From: an uncultured Prochlorococcus sp.
GTDB taxonomy: Bacteria; Cyanobacteriota; Cyanobacteriia; PCC-6307; Cyanobiaceae
Length of the DNA stretch: 44,938 nucleotides
Direction of reading: 5' to 3'
Assembly (NCBI GenBank): GCA_913048245.1
Contig: CAJWWR010000007.1
Span: forward strand, 1-44,938
Below are positions 9,972 to 27,219 of this stretch, one piece after another (positions within the stretch are counted from its first letter, which is position 1; every line of letters starts with the position of its first letter). The translations under genes and the position numbers were made by a program. The notes under the pieces were generated by a model. The model had not been told where the DNA came from. It saw nothing but the letters and a program-made list of their open reading frames with translations, and did no database searches.

Positions 9972-12569
9972 TTGGAACACACACTAGTTATTGTTGAAAG
10001 CCCCACAAAAGCAAAAACTATCAGAAAGTTTTTGCCATCTAATTATGAAGTTTTAGCTTCGATGGGACATGTAAGGGATCTTCCTAAAGGTGCAGGTGAG
10101 ATCCCCTCATCATTAAAAAAAGAAAAATGGTCAAGAATTGGAGTAAATACTGGTGAAGATTTTGAACCACTTTATGTAATACCCAAAGAGAAGAAAAAGA
10201 TAGTTCAGGATCTTAAGAAAGCTTTAAAAGGAGCAAACAGATTATTATTGGCTACTGATGAAGATAGAGAAGGTGAAAGTATAAGTTGGCATTTACTACA
10301 AATTCTAAAGCCAAAAATTCCAACAAGGAGAATGGTTTTTCACGAAATAACAGAAAAGGCCATCAATAAAGCTTTGGATGATACACGGGAAATTGATATG
10401 GAATTAGTTCAAGCGCAAGAAACGAGACGAATTCTAGATAGGCTTTTTGGATATGAATTATCGCCATTATTATGGAAGAAGGTTGCACCAAGACTTTCAG
10501 CTGGTCGTGTTCAGTCTGTTTCCGTAAGATTGTTAGTAAGAAGAGAGAGAGAAAGAAGAGCATTCAAAAAAGCCTTATATTGGGATTTAAAGGCAGTTCT
10601 TTCCTCTGATAACATAGAGTTCGAAGCAAAATTATTTAGCCTGAATGGAGATAAAATAGCAACTGGTTCAGATTTTGATGAGAAGACAGGAAATCTCAAG
10701 AAAAGTTGTCAAGCTCTTTTATTGGATCAAACAAAGACAGAGGTCTTATTGAAATCTTTAGTTAATAAAACTTGGATTGTAGATAAAGTTGAAAAGAGAC
10801 CTGTAACTAGGAAACCAGTCCCCCCATTTACTACAAGTACTTTGCAACAGGAAGCAAATAGAAAAATACGCCTTTCTGCAAGAGAAACCATGAGATGTGC
10901 TCAAGGTCTTTATGAAAGAGGATACATAACATATATGAGAACAGATTCTGTACATTTATCGCAACAAGCTATTACAGCAGCCAGAGATTGTGTGCTGTCA
11001 AAATATGGTAAAGAATATCTTTCTAATGAACCGCGACAGTTTAGTTCTAAGGCCGTTAATGCCCAGGAAGCCCATGAAGCAATTAGGCCTGCTGGAGAAA
11101 AATTTCAGACGCCTGCTGATACAGATTTACAAGGACGTGATTTAGCTTTATACGAGCTTATCTGGAAAAGGACTGTTGCCAGTCAAATGGCAGAGGCAAA
11201 ACTAACAATGATCAATTCAGAGATACTTGTAGGGGACGCAGTTTTTAAATCAAGTGGAAAGAGTATTGATTTTCCTGGCTTTTTCAGAGCTTATGTTGAA
11301 GGAAGTGACGATCCAGGAGCCGCATTGGAGCAGAAGGAGGTGGTTTTGCCTAATCTTACTATTGGCAAGGAATTAAATGTAAAAAGTAACAATTCTATTT
11401 GCCATGAAACAAAACCTCCTGCCAGATTTACTGAGGCGGCCTTAGTGAAAATTCTTGAAAAGGAGGGTATAGGTAGACCCTCTACTTATGCAAGCATTAT
11501 TGGCACGATTGTTGATAGAGGTTATGCTCATATATCTTCCAATTCTTTAGCTCCAACTTTTACTGCCTTTGCTGTGACTGCGCTTCTAGAGGAGCACTTC
11601 CCGGATTTAGTCGATACCACTTTTACCGCAAAAATGGAATCTTCACTTGATGAAATTTCTGCAGGCAATTTAGAGTGGCTTCCATATCTAGAGACTTTTT
11701 ACAAAGGTAAAAATGGATTAGAGGTTAAAGTAAAAAAAACTGAAGGGGATATAGATGGAAAGGCTTATAGACAGGTTGATTTTGACGACTTACCTTGCGT
11801 TGTTAGAATTGGATCTAATGGTCCATGGATTGAAGGTACAAAAATTGACGAAGAAGGTAATGAGATTCAAGCAAAAGGGAATCTTCCAATGGATATTACC
11901 CCTGGTGATCTAGACAAAAAGAAAGTCGATCAAATCCTGAGTGGACCTTCTGATTTAGGGCAGGATCCACAGACTGGAGAAAAAGTTTTCTTAAGGTTTG
12001 GCCCTTATGGTCCATATGTTCAGCTTGGTACTAATGATAATTCTGAGGCTAAGCCAAGGAGGGCATCTTTACCAAAGGAATTAAAAACAGATGATTTAAC
12101 ATTAGCAGAGGCTCTCAAACTTTTAAGTCTACCCAGGCTATTGGGAGAACATCCAGATGGAGGAATTGTAGAAGCAGATAGAGGTAGATTTGGTCCATAT
12201 GTTAGGTGGATTAAGAATAAAGATGAATCTGAAAATAGGTCTTTAAAAAAAGATGACGATGTTTTTAATGTGGATTTAAATAGAGCTCTAGAAATTCTTT
12301 CGATGCCAAAATTAGCCAGAGGTGGTAGAGAGGTTCTAAAAGAATTGGGGAAACCAAAAGGTTCAAAAGATAAAATTCAGGTTTTAAATGGTCCTTATGG
12401 AATTTATGCAAAATATGGAAAAGTCAATATTTCTCTACCTAAGGATATCGATATTGAGAAATTGACTGAGGAGGATGTGCTCAATTTCATGAAAGACAAG
12501 AATCCCACAAATAAAAAGAAAACCACTTCTAGTAAAGTTAATTCTGTTAAAAAGCGACGCAAAACCTAG
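9972..12569 (+). CDS. topA: DNA topoisomerase I (type IA)
   Basis: TopA relaxes negative supercoils by single-strand passage. The TOPRIM domain opens at once, with E9 in VIVESPTKAK and the D96-x-D98-x-E100 triad. The catalytic tyrosine is Y321 in ITYMRTDS, and a second family motif, EGIGRPSTYASII, lies near residue 498. The 865-residue protein ends in about four glycine-aromatic repeats (for example RIGSNGPWIEG, RFGPYGPYVQLG, RGRFGPYVRW, NGPYGIYAKYG) and a basic tail, with no CxxC zinc fingers of the E. coli type. The start is TTG at 9972, directly before the TOPRIM strand; the next Met is residue 31. It heads a five-gene plus-strand cluster. Confidence 0.96.
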   Translation: MEHTLVIVESPTKAKTIRKFLPSNYEVLASMGHVRDLPKGAGEIPSSLKKEKWSRIGVNTGEDFEPLYVIPKEKKKIVQDLKKALKGANRLLLATDEDREGESISWHLLQILKPKIPTRRMVFHEITEKAINKALDDTREIDMELVQAQETRRILDRLFGYELSPLLWKKVAPRLSAGRVQSVSVRLLVRRERERRAFKKALYWDLKAVLSSDNIEFEAKLFSLNGDKIATGSDFDEKTGNLKKSCQALLLDQTKTEVLLKSLVNKTWIVDKVEKRPVTRKPVPPFTTSTLQQEANRKIRLSARETMRCAQGLYERGYITYMRTDSVHLSQQAITAARDCVLSKYGKEYLSNEPRQFSSKAVNAQEAHEAIRPAGEKFQTPADTDLQGRDLALYELIWKRTVASQMAEAKLTMINSEILVGDAVFKSSGKSIDFPGFFRAYVEGSDDPGAALEQKEVVLPNLTIGKELNVKSNNSICHETKPPARFTEAALVKILEKEGIGRPSTYASIIGTIVDRGYAHISSNSLAPTFTAFAVTALLEEHFPDLVDTTFTAKMESSLDEISAGNLEWLPYLETFYKGKNGLEVKVKKTEGDIDGKAYRQVDFDDLPCVVRIGSNGPWIEGTKIDEEGNEIQAKGNLPMDITPGDLDKKKVDQILSGPSDLGQDPQTGEKVFLRFGPYGPYVQLGTNDNSEAKPRRASLPKELKTDDLTLAEALKLLSLPRLLGEHPDGGIVEADRGRFGPYVRWIKNKDESENRSLKKDDDVFNVDLNRALEILSMPKLARGGREVLKELGKPKGSKDKIQVLNGPYGIYAKYGKVNISLPKDIDIEKLTEEDVLNFMKDKNPTNKKKTTSSKVNSVKKRRKT

Positions 12570-12578
12570 ACAGAAAAA

Positions 12579-13067
12579 ATGTTTGCATTATATAAAAAGG
12601 TTTCTTTATTTTGTGTACTGATATTTTTACAGTCTTGCTCAGGAGGTAAACTAGGGAATTTTTTTGAATTAACTTTCGAGAATATAGAGGAAGAGAATAT
12701 TTCTGATACTTATTTATCTACTGCTGATTTTATCTCTCCAGATAACAACGACTTTATCTCCGCAGAAAATGATTTCAAAAATATTGATTTATCTGAAGAA
12801 ATAGAAGAAATAGAAGAAATAGAAGAAATAGAAGAAATAGAAGAAACTAATAATGCATTGGAAGAATTGATAATTATTTCTAGCGATGAGGAAAATACTG
12901 CAAATCAAGAAAAAAAAAATTACCAGACCTACAAAATTATCGTAATACTTAAAGATGTAGATCCAACTGCTCCTACAGAGGAACTTACAAAAATTTTAAG
13001 AGAATTTAACTTTAATTTTGAAATTGAAAAAATAGAACGTTATTCTGAAGCTAATCAGCAAAATTAA
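12579..13067 (+). CDS. Acidic lipoprotein with EEI tandem repeat, hypothetical
   Basis: I do not recognise the family. The N-terminus is a lipoprotein signal peptide: basic KK, a hydrophobic core, and the lipobox LQSC with C20 as the predicted acylated cysteine. The middle is strongly acidic and includes a run of EEI units at about residues 72-90, encoded by an exact 9-bp tandem repeat (12795-12839). The last 55 residues (TYKIIVILKDVDPTAPTEEL onward) look like a small beta-alpha-beta fold. It begins 9 bases after topA and is followed by a DUF2232 gene, so it is probably co-transcribed. The mature protein should be membrane-anchored. Function unknown. Confidence 0.75.
   Translation: MFALYKKVSLFCVLIFLQSCSGGKLGNFFELTFENIEEENISDTYLSTADFISPDNNDFISAENDFKNIDLSEEIEEIEEIEEIEEIEETNNALEELIIISSDEENTANQEKKNYQTYKIIVILKDVDPTAPTEELTKILREFNFNFEIEKIERYSEANQQN
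12795..12839 (+). repeat. 9-bp tandem repeat, five exact copies
   Basis: The unit GAAGAAATA is repeated five times without error from 12795 to 12839, followed by a partial sixth unit (GAAGAAACT, 12840-12848). It encodes Glu-Glu-Ile repeats. Because the unit is a multiple of three, gain or loss of copies would change protein length without shifting the frame. Confidence 0.9.
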
Positions 13068-13084
13068 AATAGGCCTTGTTCGGA

Positions 13085-13720
13085 ATGAAGCTAACTAAGA
13101 AGTCAGAAGCTTTAAATATTATTGAACCATCATATCTAGCCTCACTTTCATCGTTACTATGGATTGCGTTGTACTATCTACCGATTGGAGGTTCAATTCT
13201 TAGACTTATTCTTCCGTTGCCATTAGCTTTACTACACTTAAGGCGAGGTTCAAAAGTCGCATTAGAAGGGTTAATAATTCAGACACTTTTACTAACAGTC
13301 TTGATGGGCCCTTTTCGAGGACCTTTGTTTTTATTCCCCTATGGTATTTTAGCTTTCTCTTTAGGTTGGTGCTGGAGAAAAAGAAAAAATTGGTGGATTA
13401 GCTGGTCAATAGGTATTATATTAGGTTCTTTTGGCTTTTTAATAAGAGTTCTTGCATTATCAACGCTAGTTGGTGAAAATCTTTGGCTAATAATTACACG
13501 TGCAAGTTTTGGCCTAATTGATAAATTTATTTCTTTTTTCCATTTATCTTTGTCTCCTTCCTTACTTGCAATTCAGGTAGTCGCTTTACTGTTGATTGTT
13601 TTACAAGAAGTTATTTATGTTTTAACTCTTCATGTAATTGCTTATGCAATTTTTCCAAGGTTGAAAATATCAATACCTAATCCCCCGAAATTAATTAGTG
13701 GATTAATTTATTTTGGTTGA
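13085..13720 (+). CDS. DUF2232-type integral membrane protein
   Basis: This highly hydrophobic protein has about six membrane segments, which I place in the DUF2232/YybS-like family of cyanobacterial membrane proteins by overall look: LLWIALYYLPIGGSILRLILPLPLALLHLRRG near the N-terminus is typical. Some relatives are thought to be membrane parts of transport or cell-surface systems, but no function is established. I chose ATG at 13085 (211 residues); a TTG at 13076 would add three residues. It lies in the topA cluster, 17 bases after the acidic lipoprotein gene and 18 before the CobT-type gene. Confidence 0.7.
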   Translation: MKLTKKSEALNIIEPSYLASLSSLLWIALYYLPIGGSILRLILPLPLALLHLRRGSKVALEGLIIQTLLLTVLMGPFRGPLFLFPYGILAFSLGWCWRKRKNWWISWSIGIILGSFGFLIRVLALSTLVGENLWLIITRASFGLIDKFISFFHLSLSPSLLAIQVVALLLIVLQEVIYVLTLHVIAYAIFPRLKISIPNPPKLISGLIYFG

Positions 13721-13738
13721 TCAATTGATTAATAAATT

Positions 13739-14869
13739 ATGGAAAAATTAAAATATTTCGGAACAAAGCAAAGCGATGTTTTTATCTCAAACAAGATCCA
13801 AATTCTAAAAAAAGAGATTGTTAAATTAAATTTCTACTTAATTATTGCAATTACTAATACTGCAAAGAATAAGGGTATTTCAGCTGTTTGTATGGACTCA
13901 GATTCAGGAATTATCACCCCGTTAGCTGATGCAGAATTCTTGCTATTTGGACCTAAACAAGATTACCGTTATAAATTACCCTTATTAAAAGCAGGAGTTA
14001 CACCAGCTCTTATTAGTTATGTATGCGCTAAATTAATAAATGCTGACGTTGTTGTTGTGCCAATAGGGATTCGGAAGTCTCCATATTTTAGTCATTTAAA
14101 TATTGAGGCAGAAAATTCTTTTCCATCTGAATGCGTCAGCACTGGTAAGGCAATGCAGAGGTTTAGGGTAGCCAACCTTTTTGACAAAGGTTTTAAAATT
14201 GGTCGGTCATCTCAAAATCCTATATTTATTTCCGAATCTGTTCCGGGTGGTACTACTACAGCACAAGCAGTTATGGAAGCTATTGGATATGAGGTTTCTC
14301 ATTTAACAGGAAGCAGTCTTTTGAATTCACCGAGAAAATTAAAAAGAGAAATTATTGATAAAGGAATTTCTAAAGCTAATCTAAATACAAATTCTGATCC
14401 GTTTGATATTATTTCCGCCCTTGGTGATCCTTTTCAGGCATTTTCTATGGGTCTCTTAATTGGCGCTAGAAAAAAAGGTAAAATGGTTATCTTATCTGGT
14501 GGCAGTCAAATGATAGCTTTATTGGCCCTTGCCCTAGAATTAATAAGTTCTGCTGAAAAAAAGTTATTTGCAGATAATGTTTTTGTTTTTACAACAAATT
14601 GGTTGGTTCGAGATTACAGGTTAAATAGTTTGTTGAACTTAGTATCGAGTAGACATGATGTTGATTTATTTGGAATAGGAAGTTGCCTTGATTTTAACTC
14701 TTCTAAATATCAAGAATTGTTAGACTACGAGAGAGGATATGTTAATGAAGGTGTCGGAGCGGGAGGATTTTCGATTCTTGCTAATTTAAGAGGTCATGAA
14801 TATAAAGAAATTGTCTCGAGCTGTGAATATAATTTAGAAAGAATGATAGACATGTCTCAAATAATTTGA
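13739..14869 (+). CDS. cobT: CobT-type nicotinate-nucleotide-dependent phosphoribosyltransferase
   Basis: The 376-residue protein matches the cyanobacterial/archaeal branch (TIGR00303-like) of nicotinate mononucleotide-dependent phosphoribosyltransferases. These activate the lower-ligand base for the nucleotide loop of cobalamin. Visible features are SESVPGGTTTAQAVMEAIGY (about residues 163-182), an ISALGDPFQAFSMGLLIGA block, and SGGSQMIALLALALEL. It differs from the classic E. coli CobT in sequence. Together with cobM at 33120 it shows a corrinoid pathway in this organism. Marine picocyanobacteria are reported to make pseudocobalamin with adenine as the lower base, so the base used here is uncertain. 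It ends 1 base before the next gene. Confidence 0.78.
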   Translation: MEKLKYFGTKQSDVFISNKIQILKKEIVKLNFYLIIAITNTAKNKGISAVCMDSDSGIITPLADAEFLLFGPKQDYRYKLPLLKAGVTPALISYVCAKLINADVVVVPIGIRKSPYFSHLNIEAENSFPSECVSTGKAMQRFRVANLFDKGFKIGRSSQNPIFISESVPGGTTTAQAVMEAIGYEVSHLTGSSLLNSPRKLKREIIDKGISKANLNTNSDPFDIISALGDPFQAFSMGLLIGARKKGKMVILSGGSQMIALLALALELISSAEKKLFADNVFVFTTNWLVRDYRLNSLLNLVSSRHDVDLFGIGSCLDFNSSKYQELLDYERGYVNEGVGAGGFSILANLRGHEYKEIVSSCEYNLERMIDMSQII

Positions 14870-14870
14870 A

Positions 14871-15866
14871 ATGACATATCAATTTCAAAATAGAAGAGAA
14901 TTTCTTAATCTTACAAAGTTATCAGTAGCTTTTCTTCTGACATCTTGTGGCTTAAATTCAAGAAAATTTAATTTAGGAATTCAAAGTAAATTTTATCCTG
15001 ATGCCTTTCTAAAATCTTTACCTAAAAATTGGATAAGGAATAATATAAATTTCAGTGATCTTGATGTAAATAATAATTATGAGAAATCTGAATTACTTAT
15101 TATTAACGATGGTTGGCTGAATAGTATTAATTTTGAAAGATTTAAAAATTTAAAAAATAATTTTAACAATAAGTTAGATAGTAAAGCAGAAGCTTTTTTA
15201 GACAGTATACCTATAGAAAATAGAAATAAATTAATTCCAATAGGAGTAATTCCTTATGTGGTGGTTATCAAAAATAATAGGGATTTAAAAATTAGTGCCG
15301 ATCAAACATGGGATTTTCTTTTATCAGAAAATCTTAAAAATAAAATTATCGTTCCAAATAGCCCTAGGCTATTGATCTCTATTGCTGAGAGAATGAAGAC
15401 TGATAATGCTCTCCCAAAATTAATTTCCCAGGTACATTCCTTTGATGAAAAAAATGCTCTTAATTGGTTAATTAACTCGGATATTTCTATTGCAATTATG
15501 CCATATTCTATTTGCTACGAATCTATTAAGATTGACTCAAGACTTTCTTTCTTATTTCCAGAAGATGGAGTTCCTCTGATTTGGAATTTCATCTTAACAA
15601 GATCTGAATTGCATCAAGATCAGATACACAATTGGATAAATTCTTTTAATGATCAAATTATTTTAAGCAGGTTAAGTAGTCAAGGATTTTTCCTGCCTTT
15701 TGTATTTGAATCGAATAATGATATTTTTGCAGAAGGGCAATTTTTTTCTAAATCAAGTGATTTACTTTCTACTAAGTGTTGGCAGAATAGTTGGTCTTTG
15801 TCAATGCTAGAAGAAAATGAAAAACAAGAATTAGAGAAATTATGGAAAACATCATCAATCCCATAA
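14871..15866 (+). CDS. Tat-type substrate-binding lipoprotein (PotD-like), orphan
   Basis: The N-terminus combines a twin-arginine motif (R8-R9 in NRREFL) with a lipobox (LTSC, C26), predicting a Tat-exported lipoprotein. The rest has the rhythm of a type 2 periplasmic binding protein, closest to the spermidine/putrescine PotD group: a central IPYVVVIKNN, then TWDFLLSENLKNKIIVP and later LIWNFILTRSELHQDQIHNWINSF. No permease or ATPase is adjacent, so the partner and ligand are unknown. At 331 residues it is full length. It starts 1 base after the CobT-type gene and overlaps the convergent aldo/keto reductase gene by 12 bases. The family assignment is from general appearance. Confidence 0.65.
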   Translation: MTYQFQNRREFLNLTKLSVAFLLTSCGLNSRKFNLGIQSKFYPDAFLKSLPKNWIRNNINFSDLDVNNNYEKSELLIINDGWLNSINFERFKNLKNNFNNKLDSKAEAFLDSIPIENRNKLIPIGVIPYVVVIKNNRDLKISADQTWDFLLSENLKNKIIVPNSPRLLISIAERMKTDNALPKLISQVHSFDEKNALNWLINSDISIAIMPYSICYESIKIDSRLSFLFPEDGVPLIWNFILTRSELHQDQIHNWINSFNDQIILSRLSSQGFFLPFVFESNNDIFAEGQFFSKSSDLLSTKCWQNSWSLSMLEENEKQELEKLWKTSSIP

Positions 15867-25533: not shown

Positions 25534-27219
25534 TCACATCATACCAGGCATACCCATACCACCCATACCAGGCATACCCATACCACCCATACCAGGCATA
25601 CCCATACCACCCATTGGATCTCCACCACCAGCTGGGGGCTCTTGCTCTGGCTCAGGAATATCTGTTATTGAAACTTCTGTTGAAAGTAGCATAGATGCTA
25701 TTGAAATGGCATCTTCTATCGATAATCTGATTACCTTAGAGGGATCAAGAATTCCTGCTTTATTTAGGTCTTCGTATTGACCAGTAGAAACATTGAAACC
25801 TTTTTTAAGTCTAATTATTTCTGAGACAACAACTTCACCATTAAAGCCCCCATTCTTAGCAATTTGCTTTGCTGGTTCCACTAGTGATTTTGCGACAATC
25901 TCAAGCCCTGTTTTTTCATCATCAACTAAGGTGGATTTAAATTTGATAAGTTCCTCAGAAATTTCTATTAGAGATTGTCCACCGCCAGCTACTACGCCTT
26001 CTTCTATCGCTGCTTTGGTCGCATTTAAAGAGTCTTCAATTCTGAGTTTTTTATATTTCATTTCTGTTTCTGTTGCTGCTCCAACTTTGATAACAGCTAC
26101 ACCACCAGATAGCTTGGCTATTCTTTCATTGATTTTATCTTTGTCATATTCAGAATCAGTAATCTCAAGTTCATTTTTTAATAGCTTTACTCTTTCTTTT
26201 ATAAGGTCTTTTGTATCTTCATAAGCAACAATTGTTGTTTTATCTTTTGTAATAGTTACCTTCTTGGCTTTACCCAAATCATTAAGAGTTACCTGATCTA
26301 GAGACATTGATTTGTCTTCACTAATAAGGTTGCCACCAGTAAGAATTGCAATGTCCTCTAAGGCGGCTTTTCTTCTCTCTCCAAATGAAGGCGCTCTAAC
26401 AGCTGAAACATTTAAAACTCCTGCATTTTTATTCATTACGAGAGCTGTTAAAGCTTCACCTTCAATATCTTCAGCAAGTATTAGAAATGACGAAGATGAT
26501 TTTTGAATTTCCTCAAGTATTGGTACAAGTGAATTTAGGTTTGAGATTTTCTGGTCGGTAATTAAAATCTTTGGATCTTCTAATTCACATAATTGTCTGT
26601 CTTGATCAGTGATGAAGTAGGGAGAGCTATACCCTCTATCAAAAGACATCCCTTCTGTTATGTCCAGTTCTGTTTCAAGTGATTGGGATTCTTCAACAGT
26701 TATTACTCCATCTGAAGTTACAACATCTATAGCTTTAGTAATTATTGAACCTATTGCCTCATCTCCACCAGCGCTTACAGTGGCAACTTTTTTAATATCA
26801 GTTCCTTTGATTTGAATACTTTTTTCATTTAATTTTTTTAAAACATGTTTAAGAGCTACTGACATGCCTCTTTTTATATCCATGGGACTTGCTCCCGCCG
26901 CAATGTTTTTTAAACCTTCCTGAACCATTGACTGAGCTAATACTGTGGCTGTAGTTGTTCCGTCTCCTGCTTTTTCTTTTGTTTTTGAAGCAACTTGCTC
27001 AATCAATTTTGCACCAAGATTTGCAAATCGATTTTCAATTTCTATTTCTTTAGCAACAGCTGATCCATCTTTGACTACATCAGGGGAACCAAATTCTCTT
27101 TCAATAACAACATTTTTAGCTTTTGGGCCAAGTGTAACTTTTACAGCATTTGCAACGGTGTTAACTCCTTTCTCAAGTGATTCTCTCGATTCATCTGAAA
27201 AACTCAATTGCTTTGGCAT
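25534..27219 (-). CDS. groEL: 60 kDa chaperonin GroEL (second type, no adjacent groES)
   Basis: GroEL forms the folding chamber that works with GroES in an ATP-driven cycle. The 561-residue protein has intact ATPase features, including LGPKAKNVV near residue 34 and [13 protein letters not shown] at about 86. It ends in a Gly-Met-rich tail made of three GGMGMPGM units encoded by a perfect 24-bp DNA repeat. No groES is adjacent, although bacterial groEL normally follows groES, so this is probably the solitary extra copy that cyanobacteria carry. I see no CIRCE element (TTAGCACTC with its inverted partner) in the 135 bases upstream. The divergent neighbour is a 59-codon membrane protein gene. 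Confidence 0.95.
25541..25612. repeat. 24-bp tandem repeat, three exact copies, groEL 3' end
   Basis: Three identical 24-base units (25541-25564, 25565-25588, 25589-25612) encode the GGMGMPGM units of the GroEL tail. Gly-Gly-Met tails are normal for GroEL; identity at the DNA level, including third positions, points to recent duplication or gene conversion of the unit. Confidence 0.9.

Follow-up and report, generated by a model that had tools for sequence, protein, structure and literature searches.

Between topA and a DUF2232 membrane protein gene, Prochlorococcus carries a gene for a predicted lipoprotein whose central spacer differs between close relatives by whole tandem units. We take it to be a tethered lipoprotein with a spacer prone to tandem duplication, so that the length of the tether changes quickly, the 9-bp unit found here included, and we would give this reading a probability of about three in four. 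The window, by which we denote the whole stretch of DNA analysed, comprises 44,938 nucleotides from an uncultured Prochlorococcus sp. (contig CAJWWR010000007.1 of assembly GCA_913048245.1). The open reading frame of the lipoprotein starts 9 bp past topA, and the DUF2232 gene and a CobT-like gene follow close behind, all on the + strand (Table 1); from this close packing it is likely that the four genes share one transcript. The gene after the CobT-like gene (14871-15866) matches the solute-binding family SBP_bac_6 with an E value of 9.9e-7, and its N-terminal LLTSC resembles a lipobox.

Table 1. Positions in the window of the lipoprotein gene, its parts and its neighbours.
Feature	Position	Strand	Evidence
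Lipoprotein gene, 162 aa	12579..13067	+	ORF; orthologues in genus and family
Signal peptide with lipobox FLQSC, Cys20 the expected lipidation site	12579..12638	+	alignments
Conserved post-anchor segment GGKLGNFFELTF	12642..12677	+	two alignments; dN/dS 0.16 around Cys
Variable linker, 82 aa, net charge -26	12678..12923	+	charge count; pLDDT <50 for residues 32-71, 73-118
Perfect 9-bp array, 5.8 copies of GAAGAAATA	12795..12846	+	TRF (100% match); whole-assembly pattern search
Conserved C-terminal mini-domain YKIIVILKDVDP...FEIEKIERY	12918..13043	+	profile match E 7.5e-22; dN/dS 0.10
topA, upstream neighbour	9972..12569	+	Pfam Topoisom_bac, Toprim
DUF2232 membrane protein gene; alternative TTG start at 13076	13085..13720	+	Pfam PF09991
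CobT-like (PRK04447.1-2) gene, after DUF2232	13739..14869	+	NCBIfam NF003369 above cut-off

With a single-sequence search, orthologues of the lipoprotein were found in 204 of 266 genomes from the genus; of the 87 that are at least 90% complete and at most 5% contaminated, 82 yielded one. A profile search recovered them from 317 of the 335 genomes in the family (Cyanobiaceae), representing 35 of its 37 genera, so that the presence of the gene in close strains, on which the sequence-only reading had staked its proposal, is borne out and a strain-specific orphan is ruled out. A profile run against 289 genomes sampled from the class gave 51 clear matches, all within the family, and two marginal ones outside it (E 0.0015 and 0.0045). 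The other 236 were without a match, and the 20 of these that were listed all lie outside the family. In other genera, which we take to be those labelled Synechococcus, all 30 loci compared have the gene flanked by topA upstream and DUF2232 downstream. It belongs to the core of the family and keeps its synteny throughout, and the orthologues, this synteny and the dN/dS of 0.10 in its C-terminal stretch rule out a spurious open reading frame. That the protein has no recognisable family had been noted from the sequence alone, and indeed neither the window protein nor selected relatives matched a Pfam or NCBIfam family above the curated cut-off. A single-sequence scan of genome_contigs returned no relative, and neither did viral_contigs, for which reason a phage-borne gene was rejected; the alignment query found 178 relatives, of which 80 were kept. 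Among the hits listed from open-licence PMC text we found no paper on the gene or its repeats. PMC2823733 reports 60 signature proteins for this clade, a set to which the lipoprotein could belong.

Signal peptide and lipobox were judged by alignment. Residues L17, Q18, S19 and C20 are invariant in an alignment of 12 members, and L14, Q18, S19 and C20 in one of 32, in agreement with the earlier prediction of a lipoprotein-type N-terminus. By its signal peptide, lipobox and invariant cysteine the protein is a predicted bacterial lipoprotein, with Cys20 as the putative site of lipidation. At the other end, a stretch of about 40 amino acids is conserved over 26 aligned family members. Across 93 genes, dN/dS amounts to 0.16 around the cysteine and 0.10 in the C-terminal stretch (3,266 and 3,680 pairs, respectively, limited to a dS between 0.1 and 1.5; the gene of G090, whose frame is broken, was not in the set). 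The linker between these two ends varies in sequence, in length (50-191 aa in the genus) and in charge, with a net value of -26 in the window against 0 to +31 for the 92 further genes of the genus. In the 30 loci of other genera, read by eye, it contains short low-complexity stretches at most, and its charge lies between -14 and +14 in 29 of them.

An AlphaFold2 model of the whole protein was poor, with a pLDDT of 49 and values below 50 for linker residues 32-71 and 73-118, so that at this low overall confidence the model does no more than suggest an intrinsically disordered linker. Modelled in isolation the C-terminal head reached a pLDDT of 83.6, with a helix flanked by extended segments and without any internal sheet, and it is only a guess of ours that the head may need a partner strand. 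Sequence matches to the PDB were weak, the best having an E value of 0.087, and in the fold search Foldseek gave a single match (E 8.2) and VIA-align gave none; together with the lack of a Pfam or NCBIfam match above cut-off, this led us to reject a known fold or family for the head. In E. coli LpoB, a lipid anchor, a disordered tether and a small conserved C-terminal head are likewise combined, and the lipoprotein may be likened to it by description; the head had no counterpart among solved structures by sequence or by fold.

The in-frame 9-bp repeat reported by the sequence-only reading was recovered by TRF (Table 1). Its units of GAAGAAATA code for residues 73-89 of the protein, and a pattern search for two consecutive units over the whole 1.10-Mb assembly found no site outside the array, the reversed control pattern being absent. 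Perfect arrays with a period of 2-120, a length of at least 30 bp and at least 2.5 copies number four in 444,352 sampled bases, that is in the window and in the opening stretch, 20 kb at most, of 20 other contigs: the 9-bp array itself, the tail of a GroEL-like gene (25540-25614 of the window), the tail of an Ffh gene at the start of contig C15 and the linker of a dnaX gene at the start of contig C1. As evidenced by the codon use of the genome, where GAA accounts for 75.5% of Glu and ATA for 34.2% of Ile codons, the synonymous purity of the array would arise with a chance of about 1.6e-4, from which it seems probable that the units were recently copied at the DNA level. A chance origin of the repeat was ruled out by TRF, by this codon purity and by the assembly-wide pattern search. 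Note that the array measures 52 bp and the repeat at the start of contig C1 127 bp; the latter suggests an assembly k-mer of 127 bases, and if this is so, the copy number of the shorter array is reliable in the window's assembly.

Triplets of the EEI type were present in none of the 117 other distinct genes compared, and no second genome was found that has a differing number of 9-bp units. The closest relative, G105, shows 80% identity in the head and 80% in the end of topA, and its contigs end either side of the position of the array. We regard variation in the copy number of the 9-bp unit itself as likely. The earlier proposal of a length-variable protein is strongly upheld in the relatives, and its further suggestion of slippage in the 9-bp unit found no support in the 117 genes or in the broken locus of G105. 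The EEI array might instead be a fixed acidic element of the window's lineage, serving for example in cation binding and no longer varying. Within the genus a net charge of -26 stands out, and the linker fragment of G105 is acidic as well, but the units are identical even at synonymous sites, which points to recent copying, and it is at the position of the array that the contigs of G105 end, so that we consider a fixed element unlikely.

The relatives themselves were compared through 94 genes of the genus, 93 of them uninterrupted (128-277 aa) and one, that of G090, broken in frame; 81 of 82 same-contig genes were read, and G004, G045 and G176 were left out. At a threshold of at least 85% identity, 68 of the 94 have a tandemly periodic linker, with a period of 99 bp in 45 genes, of 93 bp in 11 and of 9, 69, 72, 81, 87, 90 or 102 bp in the rest. 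The commonest unit among relatives is therefore one of 99 bp, corresponding to 33 amino acids, and not the one of 9 bp. No tandem period was detected at the same threshold in 26 of the 94, five single-unit genes of 128-134 aa among them. Exact 99-bp arrays reach up to 4.4 copies. As regards the comparison of copy number with relatives, which the first reading had proposed as a check, this number is not constant: the gap between the anchors topA and DUF2232 ranges from 432 to 861 bp in 82 genomes (sd 81.5), and the control gap from DUF2232 to cobT from 531 to 555 bp in 128 genomes (sd 3.8).

Unit number changes fast in these relatives. Flank pairs and trees were analysed for 67 loci, after 13 of 80 had been dropped as not intact. 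Among 82 pairs of loci whose flanks are at least 97% identical, the gene differs in length in 72, and in 46 it does so by a multiple of 33 aa. Loci L201 (AG-349-G11) and L263 (AG-347-I19), with flanks 99.47% identical, have two and four units, and L239 and L251, with flanks 98.87% identical, have one and five. Mapped onto the flank tree, the unit-number class of 28 rows requires at least 17 changes, and since all 300 of 300 shuffles needed 17 or fewer (mean 15.4), unit number carries no tree signal in these rows. With all 67 gene lengths taken as states, 49 changes compare with a shuffle mean of 52.5, and seven of 300 shuffles reached 49 or fewer, so that lineages with different units retain a weak tree signal between them. 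Eighteen genes have at least two full 99-bp units, which are 99.1% identical within a gene and 92.0% between genes, a difference that holds in 18 of 18 genes and that none of 2,000 permutations matched. Of 50 unit pairs within genes, 22 are exact. A higher identity within genes is expected from repeated duplication and loss, i.e. from concerted evolution.

Changes by 9-bp or 99-bp units keep the reading frame and do not amount to on/off phase variation. In G090, a 5-contig assembly rated 100% complete, an exact 22-bp duplication in the linker (locus L174) shifts the frame and cuts the lipoprotein to 84 aa, and a 69-bp repeat follows the duplication.

The locus is also a place where assemblies break. 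We surveyed 135 genomes, comprising those at least 82% complete and the window's own, and in the 125 where both topA and DUF2232 were found the two lie on one contig in the correct arrangement in 82 and are broken apart or rearranged in 43. The control interval from DUF2232 to cobT was intact in 128 of 128, so that the excess has a Fisher p of 8e-16, or of 2e-14 with one break added to the control; genomes with a single anchor, six for the first interval and four for the second, stand outside these counts. Both contig ends fall within the lipoprotein gene in 36 of these 43 genomes (33 identified by script and three, which its motif had missed, read separately). In another five the contig on the topA side stops within topA itself, and the last two, G149 and G179, carry the anchors inverted on a single contig. 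Read by eye, the contig ends flank the repeat region on both sides, often some 50 bp outside it. A single-cell pipeline that trims 100 bp off each contig end is described in PMC5519541, and such trimming would explain the positions, because restoring 100 bp puts both ends inside the repeats; it may be inferred that the genomes passed through a pipeline of this kind. The data probably lack the longest arrays, and with 36 to 43 of 125 assemblies cut in or beside the gene, the variation is probably under-counted. Concerning the inversions, topA and DUF2232 are mutually inverted on one contig at L068 (G179) and at L072/L113 (G149), with the breakpoint in G179 lying within the lipoprotein linker. 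Both are probably amplification chimeras, although a real inversion is possible.

Such cases raise the question whether the length differences as a whole are artefacts of assembly or amplification. Many of the genomes are those of amplified single cells, G149 and G179 look chimeric at this very locus, and tandem repeats are described as error-prone in short-read assembly (PMC6868369). Nevertheless, assemblies of at most six contigs, which supply 25 of the 94 genes, vary as well: their 24 uninterrupted genes range from 149 to 206 aa, with 167 aa in seven and 199-200 aa in G011, G012 and G022. One versus two 99-bp units, moreover, should be resolved with long k-mers. We therefore hold an artefactual origin to be highly improbable.

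Orthologous and syntenic across the family, the gene combines conserved ends with a variable centre, and the tethered lipoprotein that we prefer would account for this as follows. The lipid anchor and the conserved head of about 40 aa would be held apart by a disordered spacer, whose DNA in this genus would readily duplicate in tandem. Identical units would then recombine unequally or slip during replication, so that whole units are gained or lost, and as unit lengths are multiples of three bases the frame would mostly be kept. Tether length would in this way shift fast between strains with both ends under purifying selection, and in the lineage of the window the same process would act on an acidic spacer through units of 9 bp. 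Judging from the neighbourhood of the gene, the DUF2232 protein or peptidoglycan might be considered first as partners of the head.

What such a change means for the cell is a separate matter. The spacer may be neutral, any length above a minimum being sufficient and A+T-rich low-complexity coding DNA expanding and contracting without consequence. Neither charge nor length seems constrained: the former runs from -26 to +31 across 93 genes within the genus and from -14 to +14 in 29 of the 30 loci outside it, the latter from 50 to 191 aa in the genus. Instability is not general, though, as a sampled 444 kb holds four perfect arrays and dnaX, which also contains a repeat, has a reading frame of nearly constant length (579-595 aa) in 41 of the 43 other genomes (those of 375 and 407 aa in G067 and G118 being cut by contig starts). 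For this reason unstable coding repeats as a general feature were rejected, and neutrality is still compatible with both observations; we give it an even chance. Alternatively, this could be an adaptive contingency locus, an outer-surface lipoprotein whose repeat number sets its reach in a periscope-like manner, with phages or grazers exerting the pressure. Unit number does outpace the tree among the 28 rows, both ends are conserved by dN/dS, and other bacteria do have surface proteins of variable length (PMC8201768). Neutral change, however, predicts the same pattern, surface exposure and selection on length would both have to be assumed, and the linkers of other genera have short low-complexity stretches at most, which leaves an adaptive role possible and rather doubtful. 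The fuller version, in which recombination in the tether of an exposed lipoprotein generates surface diversity against phages and grazers, with part of the lengths hidden by assembly breaks, appears to us slightly more doubtful still.

Among described systems the closest in kind are the Periscope Proteins SasG, Rib and Sgo_0707. As presented in PMC8201768, these are anchored, have a stalk encoded by near-identical tandem DNA repeats and a conserved terminal domain, and differ in repeat number among similar strains, as do the relatives studied here; units are identical at the DNA level, to 99.1% in the 18 genes of relatives and exactly so for the 9-bp units of the window. In contrast, the repeats of that survey exceed 50 residues and are mostly folded domains, and here they have 33 or 3 aa with low predicted structure. 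Periscope Proteins are also anchored to the wall, and the present protein, from a phototroph, has an N-terminal lipid-type anchor and a surface location that is putative. Failing the features of repeat length and folded domain it was not filed as a Periscope Protein, and on our best reading it may work like one by analogy, without all the defining features. The genes with intragenic tandem repeats of Legionella pneumophila (PMC2639597) share coding repeats that vary among strains, although organism and proteins are different and the likeness meant is one of kind. PARCEL repeats, according to PMC2996958, are tandem repeats in membrane-anchored proteins, Mollicutes lipoproteins included, and are reported for Prochlorococcus MIT 9215 and MIT 9301. 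Their units differ from ours in having 25 residues that vary from copy to copy, and the Prochlorococcus ORFs, reported for 2 of 12 strains, are set apart by their description as bitopic transmembrane proteins.

We thus describe a lipoprotein, hitherto undescribed and common to Prochlorococcus and its family, whose spacer length changes faster than the flanks resolve into a tree. A fast-changing coding spacer of this kind occurs in genomes that are thought to be streamlined; it could be used as a fine-scale strain marker and is a concrete candidate for repeat-driven length variation of the envelope in ocean picocyanobacteria. If the length-contingency reading were true, it would mean heritable surface diversity in streamlined, free-living cells of the most abundant phototroph in the ocean.

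Further repeats were noticed in the same genome (G000). At the start of contig C1 (L301, 1-127) a gene that we take from its sequence to be dnaX-like contains a 36-bp unit in 3.5 copies over 127 bp. At the start of contig C15 (L314, 1-109) six copies of an 18-bp unit code for the C-terminal GMPGMG tail of what is presumably an Ffh-like (SRP54) protein. In the window, a 24-bp repeat in three copies encodes the GGMGMPGM tail of the GroEL-like gene (25534-27219).
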